Virus record (IMG/VR): IMGVR_UViG_3300012936_006851
Location: 1-21,694 of that record
Length of the DNA stretch: 21,694 nucleotides
From: a virus
Strand: one strand, 5' to 3'
Position 1 is the first letter of the stretch; the number at the start of each line of letters is the position of its first letter. The notes under the pieces were generated by a model. It was not told the origin of the DNA and ran no database searches. It worked only from the letters and a program-made list of their open reading frames with translations. The position numbers and the translations under genes were made by a program. Positions 1 through 21,694 of the stretch are shown in pieces.

Positions 1-708
1 AAAACTTACGAAGGGTCTCTATGGGATCAGGAAATTTTTCCTATTGATAGTTGGAAAAAATTAATGAATTATAAAGGTAAGGAATCTAATTTCAGACATA
101 AATACGATCACAAAAGCACTCGGGAAAAAGTTAAAAAGTTTGGAATGAGAAATTCCAATGTAATGGCAATAGCTCCCACAGCTACTATTGGTTACATTAA
201 TGGCGTTGAACAAAGCATAGAACCAAATTTTTCAGTATTATTTGTCTATGAAAATAAGTCAGGAAACTTTTACATAACAAATGAGCATTTCGTCCGAGAC
301 ATGAAAGAGAGGGGTTTATGGAACCAAGAGATGTCTAATTTGGTTAAAAGTGCAGACGGAGATTTATCAAGGTTAAATGGAAGTATACCGAATGACATTA
401 AAGAGAAATATAAAAGTGCCTTTGACAGAGACATGTTTAAACTCATAGAATGTAATGCGGAGCGCCAAAAATGGATGGACCAATCAATCAGCTTCAATCT
501 TTACAATAGCGGAACTTCACTAAAATATCTAAATGATATTTATATGAAATGCTGGGAAGAAGGTTTAAAGACAACCTATTATTTGAGAAATAGAGCAGCT
601 AGCAAAGTTGAAAAATCCACAGAGACTACAGGACAGAATACCGAAGAACCCTCAGCTTGCAGTATTGAGGCTATGCGAAACGGAGAATCCTGTGAGAGTT
701 GTCAATGA
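1..708 (+). CDS. nrdA: Ribonucleoside-diphosphate reductase large (alpha) subunit, C-terminal part
   Basis: The reading frame is open from base 1, so the 5' part lies outside the window; about 235 residues remain. The class I alpha-chain core motif APTATIGYINGVEQSIEP is present. Near the end comes KWMDQSISFNLYNSG, then LKTTYYLRNRAAS, whose Tyr pair corresponds to the radical-transfer tyrosines of NrdA (Y730/Y731 in E. coli). The tail ends in CESCQ, matching the swinging C-terminal cysteine pair re-reduced by thioredoxin or glutaredoxin. The enzyme reduces ribonucleotides to deoxyribonucleotides for phage DNA synthesis. Its stop overlaps the Nudix start by 4 nt (ATGA). Its beta partner is about 12.5 kb downstream at 13180, so the two subunit genes are split by structural and secreted-protein genes. 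Family call is very secure; the missing N-terminal part means no statement about its ATP-cone is possible. Confidence 0.95.
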   Translation, partial: KTYEGSLWDQEIFPIDSWKKLMNYKGKESNFRHKYDHKSTREKVKKFGMRNSNVMAIAPTATIGYINGVEQSIEPNFSVLFVYENKSGNFYITNEHFVRDMKERGLWNQEMSNLVKSADGDLSRLNGSIPNDIKEKYKSAFDRDMFKLIECNAERQKWMDQSISFNLYNSGTSLKYLNDIYMKCWEEGLKTTYYLRNRAASKVEKSTETTGQNTEEPSACSIEAMRNGESCESCQ

Positions 709-1130
709 GCATAGAAAACAAAGCTTCAGGGGTGGCTGTATTTTTCGGAAATACAGTTTTACTTGCGAAGAGATCTAAAAATTGCTACATCACAGGTGAA
801 CCTGCGCCCTTTGGAGGTTACTGGTCTATATTTGCCGGAGCCCTAGAAAAAGGAGAAAAACATCAGGAGTGCGCAGTTAGAGAAGCTTTAGAAGAAGCTT
901 CAATAAAAATAGATTCGAAAAAACTTAAGTATATAAATACTATCACTAACAAAAAAATAAAACTCAGGATATACGGAGTAGAATTAGAAGAGATACTGTA
1001 CCCAAAATTAAACCCAGAGCATACAGCATATGGATGGTTTAATGTAGACGCATTAGATTCGTTTTCTGAAAAAATAGACCCTAAAGTTGTCAAAAGTGTA
1101 ATTAAGTATGTAAAAAAACGAAAAAAATGA
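705..1130 (+). CDS. Nudix hydrolase
   Basis: This 141-residue protein is a full-length single Nudix domain. The Nudix box GX5EX7REUXEEXGU is matched by GALEKGEKHQECAVREALEE followed by ASI: the Gly, the first Glu, the REALEE core and the final hydrophobic residue are kept, and the usual Gly near the end is Ser. Such enzymes cleave nucleoside diphosphates linked to another group, for example oxidised or non-canonical dNTPs or ADP-ribose; the substrate cannot be read from sequence. I chose ATG 705 because it forms a 4-nt ATGA overlap with the nrdA stop; an in-frame TTG at 699 is the alternative. The C-terminus overlaps the next gene by another ATGA, implying translational coupling. The setting next to nrdA suggests nucleotide-pool cleaning or nucleotide recycling. 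Confidence 0.9.
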   Translation: MSIENKASGVAVFFGNTVLLAKRSKNCYITGEPAPFGGYWSIFAGALEKGEKHQECAVREALEEASIKIDSKKLKYINTITNKKIKLRIYGVELEEILYPKLNPEHTAYGWFNVDALDSFSEKIDPKVVKSVIKYVKKRKK

Positions 1131-3169
1131 AAAGAAAATTAATTCTATTAGCTCTATTATTATTGCCAGCACTTTGCTTTAGTAGTAACACATTATATTT
1201 TAATAACGGAAAATCCTTAGAGGGAGAAATTCTTGAGGCCAACGAAACCCACGTAAAGATAGCGAGAGCTAAAGACTTGCAACAATTCAGATTCCCAATC
1301 GACCTTCTAACAATAGACTCTAAAAAACAAATTGAATTATATTACTCTAAAGATAGGTACAGTAGCATACCATCACTAACAACGCCTCTAGATGAGAGAA
1401 CTTTGAATAAATTTTCTAGTTTCATAGATCAACTTATAGAACAAAATTTAAGAAATAATAGATTACAAAAAACAAAAGAGCTAGATGATTATACTTATGC
1501 TAGAAGATTATACTTGACAGTAATAGGTAGAATACCAACACAATCAGAATTATTAGAGTTCGTTGATGACAGAGATAGAAATAAAAAAGATAAATTAATT
1601 CAAAAACTTTTAAATTCAAATGGTTATGTTAATCATCAATTAAAGTGGTGGAGTGATATGTTAAGAATTAAAGATAGGGTTAATGGCACAAACATTAATG
1701 TTGGGGCAGTTTACAGAAAGTGGCTTAGAGAATCTTTAGAAAATAAAAAACCCTATGATCAAATTGTTAAAGAACTTGTATCTGGAAGTGGAAAACTTCT
1801 AGATGGTGGAGCTGAAATCAGTTATTACCTAAGAGATAGGGGAATGCAAGAAGACAACCTATCGCATACGATTAGAATTTTCCTTGGAACTAAACTAGAA
1901 TGCGCCATGTGCCACGATCACCCATTTGATAAATGGACTCAAAAACAATTCTATGAAATGACGGCTTTTACATCAGGCATCGGCAATGTAAGGCTAAGAG
2001 ATGAAAATAGAGCGATAGGTCAATTAAGCAGAGCAATTAATGAAGATGGGGACGAAAGGGCTGGTTTATTTAATAATTGGAGAAATATCGTTAGGGATTC
2101 TATACAGTTTGGCATAGAGAATAATGGGACAGGTTCAATTAAACTACCTGTAGATTTTGCAGAAGATAACGGAAACCCCGGAGACACTGTATTAGCAAAA
2201 GCTATATTCACACCCAGACCACCAGAAAAAATAGATGGAAACAGCAGGATTATATTTGGTCAATGGCTAACAAGCAAAGACAATCCCAGATTCACAACTA
2301 TGATTGCAAACAGAATATGGAAACATATATTCGGTGCAGGCCTAATAGAACCAATAGATTCAATGATGGATGATACAATTGCAAGCAATCAGGAATTAAT
2401 GAAATTTTTAGAAAGGTTAATGGTGTCAGTAAATTATGACTTAAGAGAGTACCAACGTATATTATTAAACACCAACCTATTCCAAAGAGAAAGCAAAAAA
2501 GAAGACTATGAATTGTTAGAAAATTATAGTTTCGAGGGCCCTATTCTACGAAGAATGACAGGGGAGCAGTTATGGGACTCTTTAGTAACTTTAGTTTATA
2601 ATGACATTGATAAAAAAGAAAGGGTCTACTTGCATAACCAACAAGATTATACTCCAATTTATGAGCGATATAAAGACATGACAGGAGAAGAAATTTACGC
2701 TGATTTCAAAAAAATATCAGAAGAAAATGACGGCAACAGGAACCTTTTGGGAATTATAAGCGATAATTATAGTTCCAATAATAAAAAATTCAAAGACAGA
2801 AATTTAGTAAGAGCAAGCTACCTACAATTTCCTGCCCCCGGAGGACATCTAATAAGGCAATTTGGAGGCAGCGATAAAGAGCAAATAGATAATAGTAATG
2901 CAGAGCCCAACACCACACAAGTACTAAATCTCTTAAACGGATTCGTCGAGAATAATATTTTAAATAAAAAAGATGCAGCATTTATCACTCAAGTTAATCA
3001 GGAAAAAGTGAAAACAAAACAGGTAGAAAACATATTTCTATCTATCCTAAATCGCAAACCAAAATATAGCGAAATTAGAGTTTTAACTGAATTCATTGAT
3101 GAAAAAGATGGATTTAAGCATGTAGCATGGATACTATTAAATAGCCATGAGTTTATTTTTATTAAATAA
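1127..3169 (+). CDS. Secreted DUF1549/DUF1553 (PSCyt2-PSD1) protein with CxxCH motif
   Basis: This 680-residue protein has an N-terminal Sec-type signal (MKRKLILLALLLLPALCFSS). Residues about 22-72 resemble a small SHD1-like beta domain (FNNGKSLEGEILEANETHVK). Residues about 92-285 match DUF1549/PSCyt2: RRLYLTVIGRIPT, WWSDMLR, then IFLGTKLECAMCHDHPFDKW, where C259-x2-C262-H263 is a potential c-type haem site. Residues about 375-660 match DUF1553/PSD1: NPRFTTMIANRIWKHIFGAG, RRMTGEQLWDSL, and FPAPGGHLIRQFGGSDKEQI. The separate PSCyt1 cytochrome domain found in many host versions is absent. These families are expanded in Planctomycetota and Verrucomicrobiota and are usually encoded beside DUF1501; their biochemical role is unknown. 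The start overlaps the Nudix stop (ATGA), so it appears translated from the nrdA message. No frameshift is seen; it looks intact and functional. The function offered here is only a family name. Confidence 0.9.
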   Translation: MKRKLILLALLLLPALCFSSNTLYFNNGKSLEGEILEANETHVKIARAKDLQQFRFPIDLLTIDSKKQIELYYSKDRYSSIPSLTTPLDERTLNKFSSFIDQLIEQNLRNNRLQKTKELDDYTYARRLYLTVIGRIPTQSELLEFVDDRDRNKKDKLIQKLLNSNGYVNHQLKWWSDMLRIKDRVNGTNINVGAVYRKWLRESLENKKPYDQIVKELVSGSGKLLDGGAEISYYLRDRGMQEDNLSHTIRIFLGTKLECAMCHDHPFDKWTQKQFYEMTAFTSGIGNVRLRDENRAIGQLSRAINEDGDERAGLFNNWRNIVRDSIQFGIENNGTGSIKLPVDFAEDNGNPGDTVLAKAIFTPRPPEKIDGNSRIIFGQWLTSKDNPRFTTMIANRIWKHIFGAGLIEPIDSMMDDTIASNQELMKFLERLMVSVNYDLREYQRILLNTNLFQRESKKEDYELLENYSFEGPILRRMTGEQLWDSLVTLVYNDIDKKERVYLHNQQDYTPIYERYKDMTGEEIYADFKKISEENDGNRNLLGIISDNYSSNNKKFKDRNLVRASYLQFPAPGGHLIRQFGGSDKEQIDNSNAEPNTTQVLNLLNGFVENNILNKKDAAFITQVNQEKVKTKQVENIFLSILNRKPKYSEIRVLTEFIDEKDGFKHVAWILLNSHEFIFIK

Positions 3170-3170
3170 T

Positions 3171-3180
3171 GTGTAAGATA
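3171..3180 (+). promoter_or_regulatory. GTGTAA-type candidate promoter before DUF1501 gene
   Basis: GTGTAAGATA begins 17 nt before ATG 3188. The same core occurs 14 or 17 nt before four other starts in this window. No -35-like hexamer is seen upstream. It resembles a phage-specific, -10-only late promoter; this is inference from recurrence and position. Confidence 0.4.
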
Positions 3181-3187
3181 TAAAGAT

Positions 3188-4453
3188 ATGAACGAAGAAT
3201 TAACTAGAAGAAGTTTTGCAAAACAAATTGCAAAAAGCTACTTAGGAATTAGTGCATTAGTTTACGGTAGTGAACTGATGTCAATGACAACAAGAGTGCC
3301 CTCAGCTAGGCATGTTATTTTTCTAAATATGACAGGAGGAATGACTCATATAGATACCTTTGATCCAAAGCCAGAAAACAAAGACGTAATGGGTGAGACG
3401 TCTGCAATTAATACATCTGCAGATGGAATACAGTTGGGACACTGGTTGCCAAAGACTGCTAAACAAATGCATTTAGCTTCACTTGTAAGATCTGTAAATA
3501 GTAATCAAGGTGCGCACGAGCAAGCCAATTATCTACTTCACACAAGTTATCAAAAAAGAGGTACGATTATTCATCCAAGCATGGGCAGCTGGATTAGTAA
3601 ACTATCAGGAAAATTAAATAAATCCTTACCAGATAATGTGAAGATAAACGGAGGTAGCGGAATTATAGGAGCTGGATATTTTGAAAGCAAACACGGGCCA
3701 CTACCATTAGGGAACCCTAATGCAGGTATCCAAAATGTAAAAAAATCTGGATACGTTGAAGAGACAATGTACAATAAGAGATTAGAAGCTTCTAAAAAAT
3801 TAAACGCAGATTTTACGGATATATTTCCACAAAAACAAGTTAGAGCATACTCGGATCTTTATGACAATGCTATTAGCTTAATGAAGAGTAAAGATTTAGA
3901 ATCTTTTGATTTAACTAAAGAACCGCAAGAACTAAGAGAAAAATATGGTTTAGATAATTTTGGACAAGGATGTTTATTAGCAAGAAGGTTAATTGAGAAT
4001 AAGGTCAGATTTGTTGAGGTTTCTTATGGTGGATGGGATATGCATAACGATGTATTTGGTAGCATGGAAACACGCGGAGCTGTTTTAGATTCAGGTCTAA
4101 GCTCCTTGCTTGAAGACTTGAATGTAAGAGGTTTACTTTCAGACACAATGGTTGTTGTGGCAAGTGAATTTGGACGGACTCCTGAAGTTAAAGCTGGTAG
4201 AGTCGGAAGAGATCACCACCCATCTGCGTTCAGTGTTTTATTTGCAGGAGGTGGAGTAAAGGGTGGTTATGTTCATGGAAAGTCTGATGAAAGAGCTCAC
4301 TACGTAGAAGAAAACGGAGTAGACGTACCTTCCATTAACGCTACAATAGCATATGCAATGGGATTAAGTATTGAAAAAATAACCTATTCTCCAAGCGGAA
4401 GGCCGTTTAAAGTATCAAACGGTGAACCGCCAATCTTTGAAATTTTATCATGA
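3188..4453 (+). CDS. Tat-exported DUF1501 protein (alkaline-phosphatase-superfamily-like)
   Basis: This 421-residue protein is close to the usual family length. It begins with a twin-arginine signal: TRRSFAKQ at residues 6-13, then a hydrophobic stretch to about residue 30. DUF1501 hallmarks follow in order: LNMTGGMTHIDTFDPKPENK, GCLLARRLIE, FVEVSYGGWDMHND, VVASEFGRTPEV, GRDHHPSAFSVLFAGGGVKG and ATIAYAMGLS. The family is related to sulfatases and alkaline phosphatases, but its reaction is not established. In Planctomycetota and Verrucomicrobiota it is typically the partner gene of a DUF1549/DUF1553 protein, exactly as here, 18 nt after that gene's stop. A GTGTAAGATA motif lies just upstream, so it may also be expressed separately late in infection. 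Its stop overlaps the next start (ATGATG). Tat export implies that it folds, perhaps with metal, before reaching the periplasm. Confidence 0.92.
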   Translation: MNEELTRRSFAKQIAKSYLGISALVYGSELMSMTTRVPSARHVIFLNMTGGMTHIDTFDPKPENKDVMGETSAINTSADGIQLGHWLPKTAKQMHLASLVRSVNSNQGAHEQANYLLHTSYQKRGTIIHPSMGSWISKLSGKLNKSLPDNVKINGGSGIIGAGYFESKHGPLPLGNPNAGIQNVKKSGYVEETMYNKRLEASKKLNADFTDIFPQKQVRAYSDLYDNAISLMKSKDLESFDLTKEPQELREKYGLDNFGQGCLLARRLIENKVRFVEVSYGGWDMHNDVFGSMETRGAVLDSGLSSLLEDLNVRGLLSDTMVVVASEFGRTPEVKAGRVGRDHHPSAFSVLFAGGGVKGGYVHGKSDERAHYVEENGVDVPSINATIAYAMGLSIEKITYSPSGRPFKVSNGEPPIFEILS

Positions 4454-5634
4454 TGAACCTAGACTTCTCAAAACAGATTAAAGCAGCGCTCGAGTCTCAA
4501 GAAGGCTCTGAAGAGGTTATTTCGGAAGAGGCTTGGGCAGCAGAAAAAGGCAAAGGCAAAAAATTAAATAAGCCCTTTAGGACCCCGGGTGGACCTAAAA
4601 AATTCTCAGTATACGTTAAGAATGAAAAAGGTAACGTAGTAAAAGTAAACTTCGGCGATCCAAATATGGAAATCAAACGTGATGACCCTAACAGGCGGAA
4701 AAGCTTTAGAGCCAGACACAATTGTGCCAATCCCGGACCCAAAACAAAAGCAAGATACTGGTCTTGTAAAATGTGGACAGGTAAAAGTGTTACAAAAGTA
4801 ACCAAAGGAGAAGATCAACTAGAAGAAGAAATGATTGAACTTCTTGATGAATCAGAAGCTAAAAGATCTGGACCTAAAAGTGCAGCTCAAACTCCAGCAA
4901 AACCTTCTGAAAAAAAGAAAGGCTCAACCAAAAATAAAGCAGGAAGCGCGGGAGAAAAAGGTTCAAAGATTACTTTCTCTGAAAAAGTTATCAGCGCTTT
5001 AAAAACAAAAGTTTCTGAGCATAACAAAAAACATCCATCTAAAAAAGTAACATTAGGTCAGTTGAAAAAAGTTTACCGCAGGGGAGCAGGAGCATTTTCA
5101 AGTTCACACCGACCCGGCATGAGTCGGGGAGGCTGGGCAATGGCAAGAGTTAATATGTATCTCAAAATGCGTAGAGGTGGTAAGGTAAAAGAATCTTACA
5201 GAAAAGCCGACCAAGACATATCAAAGTCTTCTATAGAATTTTCAGAATATTCTGATCTAGAAATAAAAGAAGCCATGGATGATTTAGACTTATTTGAAAT
5301 TTCTAACGAAACAGAAGAAGATTTAGAAACAATGTTCATCGAAGAGCTAGAAGCAGAGCTAACCGAAAAGCAAAAAAAATTACCCCCAGCTATTCAAAAA
5401 GCTATCCTAAAGAAAAAGGGCAAGGCTCCTAAAGATAGTAAGGATAAAGAAAAAGATAAGAATAGCTCCGAAAAAGAAGAGTCTGAAGCTAAAAAAGGTC
5501 TCTGGGAAAATATTAGAGACAAGAAAAGAAGAATGGGTAAAAATTATCGACCAGCGAAACCCGGAGATAAAGACAGACCCAGCCAAGAAGCTTTAAAGAA
5601 AGCTCAAGAAAGCTCAAAGAAAAAGAAAATGTAA
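4450..5634 (+). CDS. Highly charged two-domain phage protein, function unknown
   Basis: This 394-residue protein is Lys- and Glu-rich with long low-complexity linkers. Two compact segments stand out. Segment 1 (about 47-112) contains FGDPNMEIKRDDPNRRKSF and CANPGPKTKARYWSCKMW, with C92 and C106 perhaps binding metal. Segment 2 (about 185-258) contains LGQLKKVYRRGAGAF, RPGMSRGGWAMARVNMYL and a KVKESYRKAD tail. I recall similar segments in uncharacterised proteins of large marine phages, sometimes annotated as prohead or virion proteins, but I cannot assign a role. The middle (260-310) is acidic and the C-terminus strongly basic, which fits a DNA- or scaffold-associated virion protein. The start overlaps the DUF1501 stop; a second in-frame ATG lies at 4453. 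An intrinsic terminator follows the stop. It might instead be a nucleic-acid-binding protein packaged with DNA. Confidence 0.75.
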   Translation: MMNLDFSKQIKAALESQEGSEEVISEEAWAAEKGKGKKLNKPFRTPGGPKKFSVYVKNEKGNVVKVNFGDPNMEIKRDDPNRRKSFRARHNCANPGPKTKARYWSCKMWTGKSVTKVTKGEDQLEEEMIELLDESEAKRSGPKSAAQTPAKPSEKKKGSTKNKAGSAGEKGSKITFSEKVISALKTKVSEHNKKHPSKKVTLGQLKKVYRRGAGAFSSSHRPGMSRGGWAMARVNMYLKMRRGGKVKESYRKADQDISKSSIEFSEYSDLEIKEAMDDLDLFEISNETEEDLETMFIEELEAELTEKQKKLPPAIQKAILKKKGKAPKDSKDKEKDKNSSEKEESEAKKGLWENIRDKKRRMGKNYRPAKPGDKDRPSQEALKKAQESSKKKKM

Positions 5635-21122: not shown

Positions 21123-21694
21123 GTGACTAGAACTAATTTATCTAAAACCTACAACTATGTAGTAATCGCAAAAAGCGATAGCTCCGCCTACCTATGGAGC
21201 GGTCATGGCCTTGAAAACGCGCCTAACCCCACAATATACATTAGGTCTGATGACGAATTATATATTAAAAATGAAAGCGGAGGGCATCTTTTAAAAATAA
21301 CCAAATCAGGAAGCGCTGATATTACAGAGTCTAATGGTTCCATAAGTCTAACTTCTCCATCCAATGGTTCTACTATTTCTGCAGGAACATACAATTATAT
21401 TTGTCAAGCTCATCCATCAGCCATGAAAGGTGAGATTATAGTTAGCGATCATGATGTTGATGGAACTCCTGATAATGGATATGGCACGGGACTTTTACCA
21501 GCCAGAGGAAATGCGATTACCGCAAAAAAAATTGTTACAAAGATAAATGAAATAGTAACAAAAAGCGAATCAGGAGGAAGGGCTGCAGTTTCCCAATCTC
21601 CTCCAGATAATCCTGCAAATGGAGACCTTTGGTTTAATTTAACTGAAGCTGAACTCTATGTATATGCAGATACTGAAAGTGCATGGATCCAAAC
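21123..21694 (+). CDS. Virion protein with cupredoxin-like (type-1 copper) domain, 5' part
   Basis: The frame starts at GTG 21123 (the preceding ATG at 21121 is followed at once by a stop) and runs off the window; 190 residues are visible. Residues about 22-107 form a plastocyanin-like domain: SGHGLENAPNPTIYIRSDDE, then ESGGHLLKIT with H55, then AGTYNYICQAHPSAMKGEII with C94, H97 and M101. H, C-x2-H and x3-M reproduce the four ligand positions of type-1 copper proteins such as amicyanin. A later segment, NPANGDLWFN, and ELYVYADTESAW match the GDLWF-x-LYVY-W motif common in structural proteins of marine phages. No signal peptide is present. I recall similar cupredoxin-like segments in phage appendage proteins, but not a proven copper function. 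The GTGTAATTAT motif upstream suggests late expression. Confidence 0.8.
   Translation, partial: MTRTNLSKTYNYVVIAKSDSSAYLWSGHGLENAPNPTIYIRSDDELYIKNESGGHLLKITKSGSADITESNGSISLTSPSNGSTISAGTYNYICQAHPSAMKGEIIVSDHDVDGTPDNGYGTGLLPARGNAITAKKIVTKINEIVTKSESGGRAAVSQSPPDNPANGDLWFNLTEAELYVYADTESAWIQ

Follow-up and report, generated by a model that had tools for sequence, protein, structure and literature searches.

Why should a phage carry two proteins with export signals, of a kind (PSCyt2/PSD1/DUF1501) that many PVC bacteria encode tens of times in a single genome? The PSCyt2/PSD1 domains go back to Studholme 2004, as cited in PMC5615132, and are abundant in Rhodopirellula and in Verrucomicrobia; for the PSCyt/PSD domains, redox or carbohydrate roles have been suggested, while their function is stated as not known (PMC2754498, PMC5615132). 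The window considered here, i.e. the whole stretch of DNA analysed, is the entire IMG/VR record IMGVR_UViG_3300012936_006851 (21,694 bases).

The gene pair and its setting

The first member of the pair is a DUF1549/DUF1553 (PSCyt2/PSD1) protein of 680 aa (1127..3169, on the + strand, as are all features given below), in which PF07583 (E=1.6e-42, 146.3 bits against a cut-off of 29.8) and PF07587 (E=7.5e-31, 107.8 bits against 28.5) are found in order; the second is a DUF1501 protein of 421 aa (3188..4453) matching PF07394 (E=3.6e-105, 352.8 bits against a cut-off of 27) over positions 1-385 of the 390 of the profile. An earlier sequence-only reading had placed both open reading frames exactly there, downstream of nrdA and a Nudix gene, and profile matches confirm the two neighbours as the C-terminal part of nrdA (1..708, PF02867, E=9.8e-48), whose 5' end is off the contig, and a NUDIX hydrolase gene (699..1130, PF00293, E=9.4e-14). 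On the other side lies a DUF5824-containing phage gene (4450..5634; PF19141, E=1.6e-7; phrog_7595, E=8.6e-13). The chain of overlapping genes also described in that reading holds for nrdA/nudix (10 bp), nudix/DUF1549 (4 bp) and DUF1501/next gene (4 bp) but breaks between the members of the pair, which are separated by an 18-bp gap. LamG tail-like genes are likewise present near the pair.

The window also encodes UvsX, DnaB, a primase and a Cas4-like exonuclease, all phage replication genes, together with nrdB; because of these genes, nrdA and NUDIX, its setting is that of a phage. Both nrdA and nrdB are full in phage relatives, near the pair. A search for a terminase or capsid gene, proposed as a check of phage origin, finds none on the 21,694 bases of the window itself but does find TerL on relatives with the same pair.

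Recurrence among phages and bacterial origin

Viral versions of the pair had been considered unexpected; they prove to be neither rare nor isolated but cargo that recurs in at least two lineages of large phages. First scans, with a single protein as query, turned up 6 and 15 viral contigs besides the window, and an alignment-based scan found at least 62, of up to 222 kb, with a DUF1501 of the window's type, a count that includes the freshwater-type contigs L148/L151-L153/L156/L158 with a different DUF1501 group. As no TerL or gp23 was detected on these either, they are not used as Opitutia support. DUF1549 is present on 41 of the 62 contigs, and the pair is not obligatory since 21 of the 62, some of them fragments, show DUF1501 without DUF1549. 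TerL (PF03237) is encoded on 33 of the 62 (11/15 and 22/47), and two of them, 222 and 147 kb long, encode T4-type gp23; gp23 is found on 12 more contigs of related groups (14 contigs in all), on some of which the pair stands beside T4-like genes. Broader alignments yield 277 DUF1501-encoding stretches in IMG/VR, the best 80 of which were kept. A 184 kb gp23-negative relative of the window, with a phage DNA polymerase, a divergent terminase (~24% identical to that of the nearest named phage) and putative virion proteins that match no PHROG, belongs to a lineage other than the gp23 phages. The neighbourhood recurs as well: in L018, part of an independent 205 kb contig, NUDIX and DUF1549 overlap in the same way, and both DUF1501 and the block from UvsX to the exonuclease are present, at ~69% identity.

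Could the window nevertheless be an artefact, through chimeric assembly or through host DNA wrongly classed as viral? Its own lack of a terminase or capsid gene is in keeping with such a reading, which is however scarcely credible given that dozens of independent contigs with TerL or gp23 carry this pair, that the nudix-DUF1549-DUF1501 junction is repeated in L018, and that no homologue of the host-locus neighbours (PSCyt1, sufS) occurs in those phage flanks that were retrieved. For the clade it is already refuted, chimerism and host contamination being ruled out by recurrence, TerL/gp23 and synteny. The claim of phage carriage is thus borne out by at least 62 other viral contigs and by TerL or gp23 on relatives; homologues do occur in other viruses, and the junctions recur in independent contigs.

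Neither protein of the pair has a match among named phages (50,697 records) or in PHROGs, and among the 11 open-licence papers that name any of DUF1501, DUF1549 and DUF1553, two mention phage, neither of them concerning a viral role to judge by title or abstract. A viral DUF1501 protein is already in a database (A0A6J5M742 in BFVD, from an uncultured Caudovirales phage), under its family name only and with no role or pair described; it is 15% identical to the DUF1501 of the window in a fold alignment.

The pair had been taken to point to a PVC host, which can be refined to marine Opitutia (Verrucomicrobiota). Among the 84,980 species genomes scanned, the best relatives of the DUF1549 protein that also cover its N-terminal domain are marine Opitutia (~42% identity), followed by Planctomycetota. 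Opitutia genomes contain 7-54 copies of DUF1501, and in an IQ-TREE tree of this protein the viral type of the window groups with, and falls within, one marine Opitutia orthogroup, inside which several viral groups are nested. The viral rows need 5-6 label changes, no bootstrap tree unites them in a single clade and one viral origin is rejected (p-AU 0.003); the DUF1549 tree agrees. The trees indicate that phage copies arose several times from the same bacterial locus. Label changes alone are directionless, and we infer the host-to-phage direction from the conserved host locus around the bacterial copies, which in the Opitutia loci read consists of DUF1549/1553, DUF1501, a PSCyt1/leucine-rich-repeat protein and finally sufS; upstream there is usually a TonB receptor or a multihaem cytochrome. 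Phage carriage and host origin of the pair are well supported; host-derived and present in bona fide phage genomes, it is a phage auxiliary metabolic gene by origin and carriage.

The window's own clade comprises 15 viruses and is sister to the Opitutia set, its best bacterial match being 57% identical; the host of the window is therefore inferred less directly. Within this clade, a gene common to the gp23 phage L016 and gp23-negative phages suggests exchange between phage lineages. Elsewhere in the tree, the DUF1501 of phage contig L129 is 93% identical to a gene of Opitutia ARS76 that has normal host synteny. L077, a bacterial row inside a viral group, was considered as a phage contig and ruled out on its normal host synteny. 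The distant viral groups L222-L260 and L319-L341 form separate clades in a tree sample without their bacterial sources. A second Opitutia DUF1501 orthogroup (A5) used as query retrieves four IMG/VR relatives, all at no more than 49% identity, which suggests, with this one other paralogue as control, that not just any paralogue is captured by phages.

Conservation and predicted properties of the two proteins

In pairs of close viral copies, dN/dS is about 0.014-0.055 for DUF1501 and about 0.042-0.055 for DUF1549; the pair is under purifying selection in viruses. The DUF1549/DUF1553 protein begins with a Sec-type signal sequence read directly from the DNA (MKRKLILLALLLLPALCFSS, 1127..1186), and a hydrophobic N-terminus is also found in its viral homologues (n=14, 58-80% identity). 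In the AF2 model (pLDDT 88) this is followed by a small N-terminal barrel (1187..1306), whose resemblance to Sla1 homology domain 1 is suggestive only, as the Foldseek match to 2hbp combines a TMt of 0.65 with a weak E=0.3; the best Opitutia matches reach into this region. Residues 259-270 form the motif CAMCHDHPFDKW, containing a CXXCH (C259-A-M-C-H263, 1901..1915) that represents a candidate haem c site and whose C259, C262 and H263 are invariant in all 62 aligned viral and bacterial sequences. No PDB structure matches the model at E<=0.001 in Foldseek and no known cytochrome fold is recovered, for which reason the CXXCH may not be a haem-binding site; in a PDB sequence search, DUF1549 has weak phycobilisome-linker and citrate synthase similarities only. 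The protein is thus not filed as a cytochrome, having the CXXCH haem attachment motif but no match to a known cytochrome c fold.

The DUF1501 protein carries a twin-arginine (Tat) motif, TRRSFAK (3203..3223), which in the viral alignment has R7/R8 in 29/29 rows and F10 in 28/29. Both the EFGRTPEV and the GRDHHP motifs are present. D284-x-H286 (4037..4045), candidate metal ligands, and E327-F-G-R330 (4166..4177), which an HMM alignment places on the sulfatase D-H-G motif, are invariant in 77/77 sequences, while GRDHHP (4205..4222), a candidate metal/substrate motif, includes the invariant H343. R7/R8, D284, H286, E327, R330, R341, H343, H110 and H129 are found in every viral row checked. The pair had been judged intact, with its Sec and Tat signals and family motifs, and every family-invariant residue checked is indeed kept.

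The AF2 model of DUF1501 (pLDDT 88) has 179 Foldseek matches in the PDB at E<=0.001 (best E=3.7e-8, TM 0.35-0.46), and those listed are mainly sulfatases, alkaline phosphatase and LtaS/LtaP (lipoteichoic acid synthase). The model assigns the protein the fold of the alkaline-phosphatase/sulfatase superfamily, here exemplified by sulfamidase (4mhx) and E. coli AP, although the TM-scores of 0.35-0.46 are low. Structure prediction, suggested as a route to the active sites, is thus informative for DUF1501 but not for DUF1549/1553, which is without a significant fold match. The profile alignment puts the sulfatase D-H/Q-G onto E327-F328-G329, so that a Glu-Phe pair stands for the sulfatase Asp-His and E-F-G-R for D-H-G; the DUF1501 site is therefore altered, and catalysis by this protein, in which no canonical Ser/Thr/Cys nucleophile is established, is uncertain.

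The predicted fold raises the question as to whether DUF1501 acts as an exported phosphatase or sulfatase that frees phosphate or sulfate for virus production, with no redox role. The fold itself, the Tat motif and the 21 of 62 contigs with DUF1501 but without DUF1549 are all in line with such scavenging, which is nonetheless unlikely, as the host locus is mostly cytochrome-related rather than Pho- or sulfate-related and the active-site motif deviates from that of sulfatases. The presence of LtaS/LtaP, AP-superfamily enzymes acting on surface polymers, among the matches bears on another proposal, made with the original description of the locus, in which the exported pair alters the outer layers of the host and thereby prevents adsorption or injection by other phages. 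The export signals that both proteins carry are compatible with it. Exclusion proteins are, however, usually small and fast-evolving, whereas those of the pair are large and strongly conserved, and homologous to a core locus already carried by susceptible hosts. Neither remodelling of the envelope or of polysaccharides nor superinfection exclusion has specific support, and both are rather improbable; that one host core locus was captured repeatedly, and without the partnering cytochrome, agrees better with upkeep of a host periplasmic system.

The pair could also encode virion components, for instance receptor-binding or tail-associated enzymes. A phage gene of the DUF5824 type often interrupts the pair, standing between DUF1549 and DUF1501 in the viral contigs L002/L008, L005/L009, L015, L017, L019 and L020, and LamG tail-like genes occur nearby in the window. 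Against this, both proteins have export signals and close host homologues (50-57% identity) of the same architecture, and in many relatives the pair lies by nrd/replication genes rather than structural genes; a place in the virion is very unlikely.

A proposed role: periplasmic upkeep during infection

The reading that we prefer, at about an even chance, is that of an auxiliary module maintaining a host periplasmic redox/hydrolase system during infection. Its source would be the periplasmic machinery of hosts of the marine Opitutia type, and the infecting phage would make both the DUF1549/DUF1553 protein, exported through Sec and bearing its haem-c-type CXXCH, and DUF1501, exported through Tat and adopting the alkaline-phosphatase/sulfatase fold. 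Once in the periplasm, the phage pair would add to the copies of the host or stand in for them and may work with the host-encoded PSCyt1 cytochrome, keeping the redox/hydrolase activity running after host expression falls. PSCyt1 was not detected on any of the 48 viral contigs searched, some of which are fragments, while the same search returns 15-60 copies per genome in four Opitutia genomes; those host-locus PSCyt1 proteins that were scanned have two or three haem-c domains. Repeated capture of one orthogroup, conservation, export signals and the absence of PSCyt1 are together consistent with such an upkeep module, and the host job of the pair probably matters during infection. The more general proposition, namely that PVC phages encode exported parts of an uncharacterised periplasmic haem-c/AP-fold system, the same host locus being repeatedly captured, is tentative, with a somewhat less than even chance of being correct.

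In comparison with PVC PSCyt2/PSD1 and DUF1501 pairs, the phage pair agrees in domains and order as well as in export signals and invariant residues; it differs in being carried by phages, in lacking the PSCyt1 partner and, in the window's clade, in the length of its DUF1549 protein (680 aa, compared with 754-890 aa in Opitutia). Repeated retention of one orthogroup by phages points to this as the copy of greatest importance to a growing cell, and makes the function of PSCyt2/PSD1/DUF1501 testable by infection. The pair can also serve to mark the host of large uncultivated phages of marine Verrucomicrobiota, a group with very few isolates. If the periplasmic haem-c/AP-fold reading is true, it would define a new class of auxiliary genes and offer the first selective handle on PSCyt/PSD/DUF1501 systems. 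A parallel is found in cyanophages, which carry psbA/psbD as auxiliary genes that replace photosystem subunits: both cases display repeated capture of the same host genes, strong purifying selection and, sometimes, one gene alone.

Occurrence of DUF1501 and its neighbours

DUF1501 occurs without DUF1549 on the contig in the large phage contigs L112, L115, L116, L123, L134, L146 and L154 (80-206 kb); of the two proteins, DUF1501 is perhaps the less dispensable. Six other viral contigs carry, besides the paired DUF1501, a second, distant DUF1501 paralogue (L124, 12887-14218; L151, 5816-7072; L152, 2380-3630; L223, 8876-10297; L259, 4076-5341; L327, 1819-3075). A phage gene of the DUF5824/phrog_7595 family (window 4450-5634) lies between DUF1549 and DUF1501 in several other viral contigs, a placement that suggests that it travels along with the pair.

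Helical similarity in DUF1549/DUF1553 proteins

Weak phycobilisome-linker-like helical similarity is seen at about residues 617-676 of the window's DUF1549/DUF1553 protein (1127-3169) and at about residues 82-175 of the family member on a bacterial host stretch (L059).

Phage lineage and 3' end of the window

The phage lineage of the window, represented by L342 (positions 125500-145000 of the 184 kb contig G006), is probably unclassified; this stretch encodes a divergent TerL, the terminase used as a phage marker, and a DNA polymerase, and its putative virion proteins have no PHROG matches. A possible tail protein encoded at 21123-21692 of the window, with its reading frame open at the 3' end, begins with weak cupredoxin/plastocyanin-like similarity (PF00127; its score of 19.6 bits lies below the 21.2-bit cut-off) that includes a copper-type motif, YICQAHPSAMKG.
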